A program made the translations under genes and the position numbers. A DNA stretch of 34,547 bases from Bacillota bacterium (GTDB lineage: Bacteria; Bacillota; Sulfobacillia; Sulfobacillales; Sulfobacillaceae), in NCBI GenBank assembly GCA_021792935.1, contig JAJYTS010000011.1:1-34547 (forward strand). The letters run 5' to 3'. Position 1 is the stretch's first letter, and the number at the start of each line of letters is the position of its first letter. Below the pieces are notes generated by a model that searched no databases, was not told the origin of the DNA, and saw nothing but the letters and a program-made list of their open reading frames with translations. Positions 28,864-33,123 of this stretch are shown here, piece by piece.

Positions 28864-29517
28864 CTAAGCGAGGTATTTCGTGGTATTAGGATTAGGGGAG
28901 TTTTGCGATAAGGCGCCCGTTAATCGCGCCAGACACAGCCATTCAAAGAGAAATTCCAACGCCTCTAGATGCCGGAGCGCGTCGTCGGCGGTTTTGCCAA
29001 ACGCGTAGACGCCGTGGCGCTCGAGAAGAATGGCTGGCACCAAGGGGTTAATCACCCGCGAAATAATGTCCGCCACGCGGTTAATATCGCGGTGGTTGGG
29101 GACCACCGGTATGGCGACCAGGGCATCTTCATCCCAATGCCCGAGAGCCTTCAGCATTTCATGGCCCTGGAAAATTAGTTCGTGGTTATTGGCATACTGA
29201 GTGGCCACATTGTTGTAGACGCTGTGGACGTGGAACACGGCGCCAGCATCGGTGGTTTGATAGATGGTACGATGAATGGCTGTTTCAAAAGAAGGCTTGC
29301 CTTCCCCGGATATTACCGCACCCTCGGGATTAAGGCTGATAACATCAGCAGGTGCTAGCCGCTCTTTATTGACACCGCTTTTGGTGATATAAATAATTCC
29401 CGTCCCTGGTTCTCGCAGGGAAAGATTCCCCGAGGTAGCCCGCAGCCATCCCCGCGGTGTGATCTCGCGGCTGATTTCCAACAGTGTGAGGGCGGCCTTG
29501 GCATGGTTGTCATTCAC
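28864..29517 (-). CDS. mtnB: Methylthioribulose-1-phosphate dehydratase MtnB
   Basis: About 217 residues of the class II aldolase/adducin family. The phosphate-binding GWLRATSGNLSLRE, the zinc ligands in FHVHSVYNN, and the later histidine in LLERHGVYAFG are present. It removes water from methylthioribulose-1-phosphate to give the diketo compound used by MtnW. GTG 29517 is favoured because GGAGGAGG lies just before it; it overlaps the mtnX stop by eight bases. The frame extends upstream to 29574, inside mtnX, which is unlikely to be translated from there. Confidence 0.95.
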   Translation of the reverse strand: MNDNHAKAALTLLEISREITPRGWLRATSGNLSLREPGTGIIYITKSGVNKERLAPADVISLNPEGAVISGEGKPSFETAIHRTIYQTTDAGAVFHVHSVYNNVATQYANNHELIFQGHEMLKALGHWDEDALVAIPVVPNHRDINRVADIISRVINPLVPAILLERHGVYAFGKTADDALRHLEALEFLFEWLCLARLTGALSQNSPNPNTTKYLA

Positions 29518-30187
29518 CGTCCAGCGCCTCCTCCGTCGAGAATAGGTCGCCGAGAATATCGTAAAATGTGTCAAATGCGGTATATCGCAGCCCCTCGTTA
29601 TTTAAAATTTGGGCTAAGGTGCCGCGGGCGTAGATGCGGTCGGCATTTTTGGCACCGTTAATATCCGTAATTCCGTCGCCAATATAAACCACGGGTGCTT
29701 GATGTCGCTCTCGCAAGAGCGAAACCACCGCATGCTTGCAAAGACCGCACCCCCCAGGACAGGGATCGGTGCAGGGATATTGCCACTCAATGGTGATGTG
29801 CGGTTGGTCAAACCGCGCCTTGTTGCTTATGCAGTGAGTCGTCGTCTCTTCGGCTGTGTAGTTAATTACGGCCTCCAGCATGAAATCCAGCCCGTTTGAT
29901 ACGATATAAAACGGGATTTTTGCGGTGGTCAAAGCGGCGCGGAATGGTTGGTATCCGGAGCGGAAGCGGGCCAAATGCCGCAGCTCTTCTTCATATAGCG
30001 GCCGATCTTGGCTGCGAAGACGCGAAAAAAGCACGTTTAATCCCGTCTTTAGGTCTAATTCGCGCCGGTTAATTCTGTTCACGACATCCCGGTTTTCTTC
30101 CGCGACGCGAGTGGTTAGTGCTTCGACTAAGTCTTGTGTGGTGATAGTGCCGTCAAAATCAGAAATGACAATGAAGGGAGGCTTCAT
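29510..30187 (-). CDS. mtnX: HAD phosphatase MtnX
   Basis: 225 residues of the haloacid dehalogenase superfamily, the normal size for the hydroxyketo-methylthiopentenyl-phosphate phosphatase. The nucleophile motif is SDFDGT (D10, D12), motif II is YIVSNG, and motif IV is YIGDGITD. A small cysteine group (CTDPCPGGCGLCK) is typical of this family's cap. It makes acireductone from the MtnW product. Its ATG overlaps the mtnW stop (ATGA), with AGGAGG inside the end of mtnW. Confidence 0.95.
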   Translation of the reverse strand: MKPPFIVISDFDGTITTQDLVEALTTRVAEENRDVVNRINRRELDLKTGLNVLFSRLRSQDRPLYEEELRHLARFRSGYQPFRAALTTAKIPFYIVSNGLDFMLEAVINYTAEETTTHCISNKARFDQPHITIEWQYPCTDPCPGGCGLCKHAVVSLLRERHQAPVVYIGDGITDINGAKNADRIYARGTLAQILNNEGLRYTAFDTFYDILGDLFSTEEALDGE

Positions 30188-31308
30188 AATTCGCGCACCT
30201 CCTCAAAGCGGGAGGCCGCATCGGCTAAAATGCGGGCGCCGTGACGCGCGCCTTGGGGATGGCCGTGGATGGCTCCGCCGGCATTAATGACAATGTCTGG
30301 TCCGAAGTCGCGAAAGAGTTGCGGCAAGATTCCGGCGTGAATTCCCGCTGATGGGCCCGGTAGCGCCGAGCGCAGGCGGGAGGGTTCGCGAAGGGCGTTC
30401 GCCACTTCCAGCGATTGCTCTTGGGGCATGGCCACCGAACCATAGGGCGAGGGGTATAGCACAATGTCGGCCCCTGCTAGCCGCGGTAGTTGGCCCAGAA
30501 GAATGCGGGGGTGCACCCCGTGCGTGCCGCTATTTATTTGGCCCCCGACAAAGGCGGGATGAAGGATGATGGGGACGGTGATTCCTTGGCGGCGAAGGTC
30601 TACCAATACATCTAATCCCGTGGTGTAGGCCGCGATGAGAAACCCGTTGGCTCCTGCCTCCAGCGCTTTGTCGGCATGCTCCAGCATTTGCCGCGGGGTA
30701 CCGGATAGCGTGGGAAAGTAGAGGCCTTTCTGGCCGGTTTGAGCTTCACGAAGTTGGCATGCCTCATGCGCGGCACGAATGCGCGCCAAGAGAGGGGCAT
30801 CTTCGTCCGCCATAAAAATTTCGTCGTCCTTCACCAAATCGACGCCGCCCAATAGCTGCTCATACAGGGCATCTTCAAATTCGGCCAGGGTTCGGCCGTT
30901 TTCACTTTTGAATATGGACATGACTAAGGGACGCTGACCCGCATGCAGCATAAGGCGCATCCCTTTAATGCCGTGGGGAGGTCCGGGAAATAGACGGGTA
31001 AAGCTTTCCGGCAGGGTTAGCCCGTGGAGTTGTATGGCTCCATCGAGGGAGAGCTTTCCAAATATCACCGTGAGCAGGGAACTAATGGAGTCGCGAACCG
31101 TTTCCAGCGGATAGAGAATGTCAAAAAGCCCAACGTCACCGTCGCGCCTAATTTCGCCGACCTCCCCAAGGTAGCGGCGTAAATGAGGTTTTCGACTATC
31201 CGGTAAATCTGTCCACGATCCCACGGTCATACCAATGGCGATGGCTTGGGCGCGTTCTGTGATGTGTTCAGTCCAGGGAATGCGATATCGCGCGGTGATG
31301 TATTCCAT
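30184..31308 (-). CDS. mtnW: RuBisCO-like diketo-methylthiopentyl-phosphate enolase MtnW
   Basis: About 374 residues of the RuBisCO-like protein class. The lysine that is carbamylated, K160, stands in GGVDLVKDDE, and GTHGVHP and NAGGAIHGHP are the C-terminal barrel motifs. It enolises 2,3-diketo-5-methylthiopentyl-1-phosphate in methionine salvage and is not a carbon-fixing enzyme; the neighbours mtnX, mtnB and mtnD settle this. ATG 31308 follows GGAAGGGG; the TTG at 31326 is inside the predicted terminator stem. It is the first gene of the operon and lies directly behind the SAM-I riboswitch. Confidence 0.95.
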   Translation of the reverse strand: MEYITARYRIPWTEHITERAQAIAIGMTVGSWTDLPDSRKPHLRRYLGEVGEIRRDGDVGLFDILYPLETVRDSISSLLTVIFGKLSLDGAIQLHGLTLPESFTRLFPGPPHGIKGMRLMLHAGQRPLVMSIFKSENGRTLAEFEDALYEQLLGGVDLVKDDEIFMADEDAPLLARIRAAHEACQLREAQTGQKGLYFPTLSGTPRQMLEHADKALEAGANGFLIAAYTTGLDVLVDLRRQGITVPIILHPAFVGGQINSGTHGVHPRILLGQLPRLAGADIVLYPSPYGSVAMPQEQSLEVANALREPSRLRSALPGPSAGIHAGILPQLFRDFGPDIVINAGGAIHGHPQGARHGARILADAASRFEEVREL

Positions 31309-31310
31309 AT

Positions 31311-31342
31311 AAAAAGCCCCTTCCAAACGGATGAAAGAGGGC
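31311..31342 (-). terminator. Riboswitch-controlled terminator overlapping the mtnW ribosome site
   Basis: On the minus strand GCCCTCTT (31335-31342) pairs with AAGGGGC (31316-31322), one T bulged, and is followed by TTTTT (31311-31315). Its 3' arm includes the ribosome-site Gs of mtnW. An alternative hairpin pairs 31352-31361 with 31330-31339. Confidence 0.7.
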
Positions 31343-31351
31343 GGATCCGCG

Positions 31352-31460
31352 CTCTCTCATCTCTCGGCTGCGCCGTCGGAGTTGGCACCGCATCCTCCCG
31401 GGGGAGGCCGGTTGCCCAGGTTTCATCGGGCCGATCCCTCTACCTGTCTCGATAAGAGAA
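31352..31460 (-). promoter_or_regulatory. SAM-I (S-box) riboswitch
   Basis: Read on the minus strand, this leader matches the S-box core: CTCTTATCGAGA at the 5' side of P1, GAGGGATCGGCCCGATGAAA, CCTGGGCAACCGG, GGTGCCAACTCC, and GAGAGATGAGAG at the 3' side. P1 pairs CTCTTATC (31451-31458) with GATGAGAG. The 3' strand of P1 can instead pair with CTCTTTCATC just downstream. SAM binding should keep P1 closed and let the terminator form, lowering mtnW-E when SAM is plentiful. The aptamer signature is strong; the switching model is inference from base pairing. Confidence 0.95.
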
Positions 31461-31482: not shown

Positions 31483-31511
31483 ACATTACTGGTGATTCAT
31501 AAATCTGTCAA
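31483..31511 (-). promoter_or_regulatory. Promoter of the mtn operon
   Basis: On the minus strand TTGACA (31506-31511) stands 17 bases before TAATGT (31483-31488). The -35 is perfect and the -10 weak. Expected transcription start is near 31476, about 18 bases before the riboswitch. Confidence 0.6.
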
Positions 31512-31733: not shown

Positions 31734-31761
31734 TTGAGACCTATTATGTATAAAGTATACT
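31734..31761 (+). promoter_or_regulatory. Promoter of the accessory cassette, overlapped by the operator
   Basis: TTGAGA (31734-31739) and TATACT (31756-31761) are 16 bases apart, each one base off consensus. The -10 box overlaps the first arm of the palindrome, a typical place for a repressor site. The rest of the gap 31512-31892 shows no gene. Confidence 0.6.
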
Positions 31762-31837
31762 TGTGGTATACTTTATGTATACAATTAACTATGAACGGCG
31801 GGTACGGAGCCGTGCCATATATATGATAACAGTATAC
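31750..31837. promoter_or_regulatory. GTATAC operator array (palindrome plus phased copies)
   Basis: Eleven-base arms ATAAAGTATAC (31750-31760) and GTATACTTTAT (31766-31776) form a perfect palindrome with a five-base centre. GTATAC occurs at 31755, 31766, 31777 and 31832, spaced 11, 11 and 55 bases, so all copies are on one helix face. A TetR-type gene starts at 34320, so it is the likely partner; this link is inference. Confidence 0.65.
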
Positions 31838-31892
31838 TTTTTTGGGAAATCCAAACCCACCTTTATTTTCAGCAGGAGAGGATGAGCACAGC

Positions 31893-32534
31893 ATGAACCA
31901 CCCATCTGACTTCGGTACATTCGGGCGCTTCACCGAAACTCCAGTCGATCATATGCCCCCTGACATGAAAGCCGCGTACGATTTTACCCGTGGTCTCCGC
32001 GGACTTGTTCCCGGTCCACACAAGATCTGGCTGGCCAATCCCCGCTTATCGCGAACGATTGTACCAACCGGCGCTTACTTCCAAAAGGAATCAACACTCA
32101 CGAAAGCGGAGATCGAAATCGTCACTAATCTGATCAATGGTCACTGGCGAACGGCCTACGCCAACTACGAACACGAGATCATTGGAGAGAAATTTGGCCA
32201 TCTCGATCCACTGAAGGTACAAGCGATGATCGCTGGATTGCCGACCTCGTTTGACGATCCACGCCAGCAGGTCATCTATGAGCTGACATCGACTCTGGTC
32301 GCAAGCCGAGTGGTGCCTCTGGGGATGTATCGGCGGGCCAAAGCGCTGTTGGGTGAAGCCGGGATCGTCGACGTGACCGTGCTGCTGGGTTGGTTTACCG
32401 CGGTATCGCTGACTCTGGCAGCCTTCGACGTACCCGCGAATGCTGTTGGCTTGGAACCATTGCCGGAAAACTGGTCCGACACAGACTCCTCCACCTGGCA
32501 GCGGTCCCACCCAGAGGAGGAGAATGATGTCTGA
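31893..32534 (+). CDS. Carboxymuconolactone decarboxylase-like protein, cysteine-less (first copy)
   Basis: About 213 residues, all-helical, of the carboxymuconolactone decarboxylase/AhpD-like superfamily. The core helix pair reads LTKAEIEIVTNLINGHWRTA followed by YANYEHEI, where AhpD would have a CxxC pair; here there are Tyr residues and a conserved His. It is therefore unlikely to be a thiol peroxidase. ATG 31893 follows AGGAGAGG; the frame opens at 31842 without support. It is the first gene after the operator, and its stop overlaps the start of the second copy. Substrate unknown; wording and codon use differ from the neighbouring core genes. Confidence 0.75.
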   Translation: MNHPSDFGTFGRFTETPVDHMPPDMKAAYDFTRGLRGLVPGPHKIWLANPRLSRTIVPTGAYFQKESTLTKAEIEIVTNLINGHWRTAYANYEHEIIGEKFGHLDPLKVQAMIAGLPTSFDDPRQQVIYELTSTLVASRVVPLGMYRRAKALLGEAGIVDVTVLLGWFTAVSLTLAAFDVPANAVGLEPLPENWSDTDSSTWQRSHPEEENDV

Positions 32535-33123
32535 TAGTCGCGAGAAGCTCGGTGGTCGACTGCCGCTCGCTAAGTACTCAGCGCTGACGGCAGCACAAAA
32601 GCAACTCTTTGATCAGTTGATTGACACGTGGGTTCCGTGGGCCGAGTCATCAGGCTTTCAAGCGCGAAGTGATGACGGGAGGCTAATCGGTCCATTCAAC
32701 CCTGCGCTGCTGCATCCAGAGATTAGCGGCAGCTTTCTACAACTACAGTCCGCGGAGCACCTGTCCACGTCACTGCCCGAGCGCGTCCGACAGGTCGTCA
32801 TCCTCACTGTCGGGGCCGTGTGGCGGGCGGAATACGAGCTCTACGCGCACTCAGCCGTCGCCCGCAAGGCTGGCCTGCCGGATGGCTCGATCCAGGCGCT
32901 CGCCAACGGCAGCCTTCCCGACGATCTGAGCGATCAGGAGAAGGTGGCTCATAACGTCGCGCGGCAGCTTTTAGTGGAGCATCAACTGGACGAAGAGCTC
33001 TACCGAAAAGCTGAGCGGCTGTTCGGATCGTCAGGAGTATTGGACGTTGTGCTCCTTACTGGCATTTATTGCACGGTCTGTGCCTTGCTGAATGCGTTTG
33101 ACATCCCGGCTCCGCACCACTAG
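32527..33123 (+). CDS. Carboxymuconolactone decarboxylase-like protein, cysteine-less (second copy)
   Basis: About 198 residues of the same fold as the protein before it but clearly diverged. The core is LPERVRQVVILTVGAVWRAEYELYAHSAVARKAGL, quoted here in two parts: the helix LPERVRQVVILTVGAV and the site YELYAH. Again the CxxC is replaced by YxxY with the His kept. A GAGGAGGAG ribosome site precedes ATG 32524/32527, and the gene overlaps the first copy by eight bases, so the two are coupled and may form a heteromer. Function unknown beyond the superfamily. Confidence 0.75.
   Translation: MSDSREKLGGRLPLAKYSALTAAQKQLFDQLIDTWVPWAESSGFQARSDDGRLIGPFNPALLHPEISGSFLQLQSAEHLSTSLPERVRQVVILTVGAVWRAEYELYAHSAVARKAGLPDGSIQALANGSLPDDLSDQEKVAHNVARQLLVEHQLDEELYRKAERLFGSSGVLDVVLLTGIYCTVCALLNAFDIPAPHH

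Follow-up and report, generated by a model that had tools for sequence, protein, structure and literature searches.

The mtnW gene is preceded by a complete SAM-I (S-box) aptamer and a short platform with two competing helices; one of them overlaps the ribosome site, and the layout is conserved in relatives. We consider it likely that this leader works as an OFF riboswitch of the SAM-I type, whose dual platform ends transcription and, on those transcripts that escape, also hides the ribosome site. By sequence-level criteria, its fit to dual transcription and translation attenuation, a kind already known, is well supported.

Architecture of the mtnW leader

The window, i.e., the whole stretch of 34,547 nucleotides that was analyzed, has on its minus strand a probable promoter, the SAM-I aptamer, a short platform, mtnW, an mtnX-like gene, and mtnB, in this order (table 1). 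Methionine salvage genes are a usual target of SAM-I riboswitches. The match of mtnW to NF007095 (E value of 3.9e-119, 397.8 bits) is slightly below the cut-off of 409. The mtnX-like phosphatase scores below the cut-offs of two mtnX equivalogs and above the cut-off for its subfamily alone; judged from coordinates, its ATG overlaps the stop codon of mtnW (ATGA). The start of mtnB (29517) is given as scanned, and the mechanical open reading frame starts at 29574. Proteins of relatives align with MtnW from residue 1, i.e., from the ATG at 31308–31306. An in-frame TTG upstream (31326) was rejected as the start codon on the strength of this alignment and because no ribosome site is seen before it.

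Leaders L039 and L041 of the survey described below are also preceded by a layout like TTGACA, 17 nt, and TAATGT. The promoter at 31483–31511 was not reported by a consensus scan (0 promoters) because TAATGT agrees with TATAAT at just three of six positions. Between divergent genes, positions 31744–31785 of the minus strand are AT-rich and have repeated GTATAC-like motifs which, by eye, are possibly operator sites. On the plus strand, two adjacent open reading frames of 230 and 227 amino acids (31842–33123) are alike; we take them to resemble carboxymuconolactone-decarboxylase-like proteins, and neither has an NCBIfam match at E 0.001.

Table 1. Features of the mtnW leader and the genes that follow it (positions in the window)
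Feature	Coordinates	Strand	Details and basis
Probable promoter	31483–31511	-	TTGACA 31511–31506, 17 nt, TAATGT 31488–31483; read by eye
SAM-I (S-box) aptamer	31354–31458	-	P1 strands 31458–31451 and 31361–31354; RF00162
Antiterminator	31330–31361	-	31361–31352 with 31339–31330, apical stem 31350–31348 with 31343–31341; folding
Terminator hairpin	31316–31342	-	31342–31339 with 31319–31316, 31337–31332 with 31325–31320, U31338 bulged; folding
Probable ribosome site GGAAGGGG	31317–31324	-	Within terminator 3' arm 31325–31316
Terminator U tract, U5	31311–31315	-	Sequence and consensus scan
mtnW, 2,3-diketo-5-methylthiopentyl-1-phosphate enolase (RuBisCO-like)	30184–31308	-	ATG start; NF007095
mtnX-like phosphatase	29510–30187	-	TIGR01489, 99.4 bits, above cut-off
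mtnB, methylthioribulose-1-phosphate dehydratase	28864–29517	-	TIGR03328, 181.5 bits, above cut-off

The aptamer, which is the window's sole Rfam match at the gathering threshold, matches RF00162 in sequence and structure over the full model (1–108; gathering score of 44.4, match score of 81.6 bits, E value of 5.9e-18). This bears out the original prediction that the leader is of the SAM-I riboswitch type. Downstream, GATGAGAGAG (31361–31352) pairs with CTCTTTCATC (31339–31330) around a small apical stem, forming an antiterminator of -17.7 kcal/mol. Positions 31361–31354 are the 3' strand of P1 and are common to both structures; thus P1 competes with the downstream helix. The terminator hairpin (-13.2 kcal/mol) was recovered by a separate consensus scan and shares positions 31339–31332 with the antiterminator, making the two mutually exclusive. 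With U5 behind it, this hairpin is a predicted intrinsic terminator. After the U tract there are two bases (31310–31309) and then the start codon, a distance of 7 nt between hairpin and start. The probable ribosome site has a calculated anti-Shine-Dalgarno duplex of -7.7 kcal/mol, weaker than those of leaders L038–L042 (-11.0 to -11.7 kcal/mol). It had been predicted that the U tract stops two bases ahead of the ATG, that the terminator 3' arm contains the Gs of the ribosome site, and that the competing hairpin uses the 3' strand of P1; all three hold, the first exactly to the base.

Across dinucleotide shuffles, a hairpin as strong ending at the U tract was found in 29 of 1,000 and an antiterminator as strong in 1 of 1,000. 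The 161-nt stretch from 31460 to 31300 folds no better than shuffles (z of -0.68), while its 3' part alone folds better (z of -3.10). A chance hairpin was rejected on the basis of the shuffles and the orthologues; the 29 shuffles that equalled the hairpin still count against the dual reading.

We infer the following course from SAM binding to termination, translational block, and coupling of mtnX. At low SAM, the 3' strand of P1 (31361–31354, extended to 31352) would pair with 31339–31330 and thereby occupy the terminator's 5' arm; the polymerase would continue into the gene, with the ribosome-site Gs outside the terminator stem. At high SAM, P1 would be held closed, the hairpin with U5 behind it would form, and transcription would end near 31311, ahead of the start codon. 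In transcripts that escape, the ribosome site would be in the 3' arm of the hairpin and translation of mtnW would fall too; given the overlap of start and stop codons, mtnX may fall along with mtnW.

Modelled folding with and without SAM

Equilibrium folding was computed at successive 3' ends, with SAM modelled as an assumed bonus of -6 kcal/mol on P1. Without SAM, P1 is lost by the 3' end 31330, and the antiterminator has a probability of 0.87–0.97 at 3' ends 31317–31306. With the bonus, P1 is at 1.00 and the probability of the terminator climbs along these 3' ends, from 0.50 to 0.82, so that the model gives a SAM-dependent switch for this leader. In this range, the probability that the ribosome site is unpaired is 0.17–0.36 without SAM versus 0.00–0.01 with the bonus. 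The modelled ON state is therefore not wide open: the ribosome site is largely paired even without SAM, and this is a weakness of the dual reading.

Extension into the coding region changes the outcome. The SAM-free RNA is antiterminated up to the 3' end 31295 and flips to the OFF fold at 31290, with or without SAM, as the spacer GCGCGG (31352–31347) pairs with the coding CCGCGC (31295–31290). This pairing was scored in each leader as a possible third lock, using the mean probability with which bases 1–8 of the spacer pair with bases 1–25 of the coding region. Scores are 0.75 in this leader, 0.69 in L040, 0.27 in L038, and at most 0.13 in the other five mtnW-type leaders; a conserved third lock is neither supported nor excluded by this rough score.

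Folding of the eight mtnW-type leaders up to the start codon gives a mixed picture. Without SAM, the antiterminator exceeds 0.9 in L002 (the leader described here), L003, and L041, and P1 and the terminator lead in the other five, L038, L039, L040, L042, and, less so, L137. With the bonus on P1, the terminator is at least 0.81 in all eight. Among nine other fused leaders (defined below), it is at least 0.83 with the bonus in seven; L072 (0.26) and L121 (0.45) hardly respond. Because the SAM-free RNA flips to OFF at 31290 and five of eight mtnW-type leaders favor the OFF fold without SAM, equilibrium folding is ambiguous on whether both locks operate. A leader whose fate is settled while it is being transcribed may look unswitched in an equilibrium calculation; even so, the folding results provide no support. 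The original prediction of a double lock stands in part: sequence, folding, and relatives support one hairpin as terminator and cover of the ribosome site, in competition with an antiterminator that takes the 3' strand of P1. The SAM-free OFF folds, here at 31290 and in five of eight leaders, count against the dual reading.

Fused terminators among relatives

MtnW is present in 18 of 61 genomes searched, our genome counted. The eight mtnW-type leaders compared are L002, L003 from the same assembly, five from the same genus (Sulfobacillus harzensis is one genome of that genus), and L042, whose genus is a different one within the family. All eight have an identical P1 strand and an identical CCCTCTTTC. 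The antiterminator is present in each; its apical part varies among them but pairs nonetheless. At one position of the terminator stem, four leaders have an A-U pair, two have G-C, and the pair does not form in the other two. Pairs were read from individual folds because MAFFT misplaces the loop gap in genomes G002 and G006. The gap between U tract and start codon is 2 bases in L002, 0 in L038, 0 in L039, 1 in L041, and 2 in L042. L040 starts with UUG, the UU of which closes a run of nine U. The gap is 4 in L137 and L003, which are ahead of broken or shortened genes. L003 (G000:C29:1750-1856) is a fused-type SAM-I leader before an mtnW-like gene that matches in pieces and in three frames, and L137 (G001:C60:30191-30297) is a fused-type SAM-I leader before one of which residues 1–62 and 285–372 match in one frame. 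The hairpin is 20–22 nt from the start in L046, L047, L052, and L053, which are mtnW leaders of greater evolutionary distance. L048, before mtnW in a more distant genus, has a distance of 9 nt via a long hairpin in one measurement and is not within 15 nt in the survey.

The survey covers 135 SAM-I leaders among the matches listed: 101 from the family and 28 from the rest of the order (genomes G000–G041), and 6 of those listed from the rest of the class. Distance was measured from hairpin end to start codon, and leaders with at most 15 nt were called fused. Start codons were called by length of open reading frame and pairing of the ribosome site, and some are wrong by eye, e.g., those of L030, L063, L076, L081, L100, and L133. 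Within the family, a terminator could be called in 94 of 101 leaders among the matches listed, with a median distance of 36.5 nt, and 17 of the 101 are fused (14 at ≤10 nt and 3 at 11–15 nt). In the rest of the order, 24 of 28 leaders among the matches listed have a terminator and one is at ≤10 nt (L126, 2 nt); L126 was rejected as a miscall because its metE-like start is, by eye, further downstream. In the rest of the class, 4 of the 6 leaders among the matches listed have a terminator and 0 are at ≤15 nt. The phylum was represented by a nonrandom sample, the best 70 leaders of its listing; the median is 46 nt and 0 of 70 are at ≤15 nt. In that sample, the expectation that most S-box terminators end well upstream is confirmed.

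Among the matches listed, eight of the 17 fused leaders are mtnW-type, seven precede a cystathionine-synthase/sulfhydrylase-like gene, and two precede an O-acetylhomoserine-sulfhydrylase-like gene. Of the nine proteins downstream of non-mtnW fused leaders, five (partial) were scanned, and the other four were assigned to groups from their N-terminal sequences. Because they belong to three leader families, the 17 are not independent, and the Fisher p of 4.4e-5 from the leader survey, which counts orthologues as independent, overstates the significance. A T run of at least five in the last 12 nt is found in 16 of 17 fused leaders versus 0 of 83 other family leaders among the matches listed, a contrast that is partly built in because fused leaders were chosen by a U run near the start. 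This shows that such a run is not ordinary spacer in the family. As compared by sequence and predicted fold, the relatives argue against an accidental layout.

These patterns bear on whether the hairpin terminates at all. A switch acting on translation only, with a hairpin that conceals the ribosome site and a U run that serves as a mere spacer without termination, would be consistent with a hairpin that is modest and bulged (-13.2 kcal/mol) and a U run that is short (U5). But the restriction of T runs to fused leaders, even if partly built in, and the terminators in most family SAM-I leaders (94 of 101 among the matches listed) make this explanation very improbable.

Five SAM-I leaders, L125 (G017:C7:11874-11979), L107, L111, L115, and L117, have a hairpin at the ribosome site, and our script found no terminator in them; judged from sequence, they are probably translational only. 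The converse alternative to a dual platform is an attenuator of transcription only, in a compact leader where the terminator does everything and its overlap with the ribosome site simply follows from the leader being short, with no effect of its own. Both terminator and antiterminator are there, RNA polymerase decides at the U tract, earlier than the ribosome site is used, and early work on pT181, as related in excerpts of a 2017 paper (PMC5435934), held transcription to be the primary level. Against this, any read-through RNA in the OFF fold is predicted to have its ribosome site necessarily covered by the same hairpin. L125, an ortholog leader of the sulfhydrylase-like group, has a hairpin at the ribosome site but no clear terminator, an indication that the family also uses concealment of the site by itself. 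We regard control of transcription only as unlikely, and the dual platform as the preferred reading.

The fused habit may not be confined to SAM-I leaders in the genus, though it is rare. Two of 17 TPP leaders are fused, both at 7 nt, and 12 have a terminator; two of 30 T-box leaders, examined from a longer list, are at ≤15 nt, and 27 have a terminator (starts were called by script in both classes). In the TPP leaders L255 (G004:C155) and L257 (G003:C85), the hairpin carries GGAGG in one arm, is accompanied by a U run, and ends 7 nt from the called start.

Known dual platforms and implications for the family

Barrick and Breaker 2007 (PMC2258182) define the dual class by terminators placed so near the gene that their 3' side includes the ribosome site, with a limit of 10 nt. 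The mtnW leader, whose hairpin is 7 nt from the start, shows no essential difference from that description; its spacer is the U tract itself, a feature retained by relatives. Excerpts of a 2010 paper (PMC2965389) name bifunctional terminators and state that no case had been experimentally demonstrated. The principle was shown, according to excerpts of the 2017 paper (PMC5435934), with an engineered dual-control pT181 attenuator in which repression went from 85% to 98%. As described there, the pT181 repC attenuator, like the mtnW leader, carries its ribosome site in the terminator's 3' half and has an antiterminator that takes the 5' part, but it is controlled by antisense RNA rather than SAM, and the dual effect was measured. 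Ordinary Bacillota S-box terminators share the aptamer, the antiterminator using P1, the terminator, and the OFF logic, but have the terminator apart from the start (median of 46 nt in the best 70 phylum leaders). A search of the literature on Sulfobacillus riboswitches found nothing relevant by title, and absence from print is not claimed.

A single such leader would be expected by a specialist; clustering in one bacterial family is mildly surprising and is the main interest, and comparative support is better than one sequence alone gives. Our tentative suggestion, which we consider doubtful, is that three SAM-I leader families of this bacterial family, with perhaps a few of its TPP and T-box leaders, came to use the terminator U tract as the spacer; in L040 the tract also supplies part of the start codon. 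The lineage would then have repeatedly turned terminators into SAM-controlled locks on the ribosome site, which continue to act on finished mRNAs once transcription has escaped. The relatives form a natural series: some leaders have fused terminators, others have the terminator apart from the start, and L125 has a hairpin at the ribosome site but no clear terminator. Such a series would allow the two locks to be measured apart in natural sequences.
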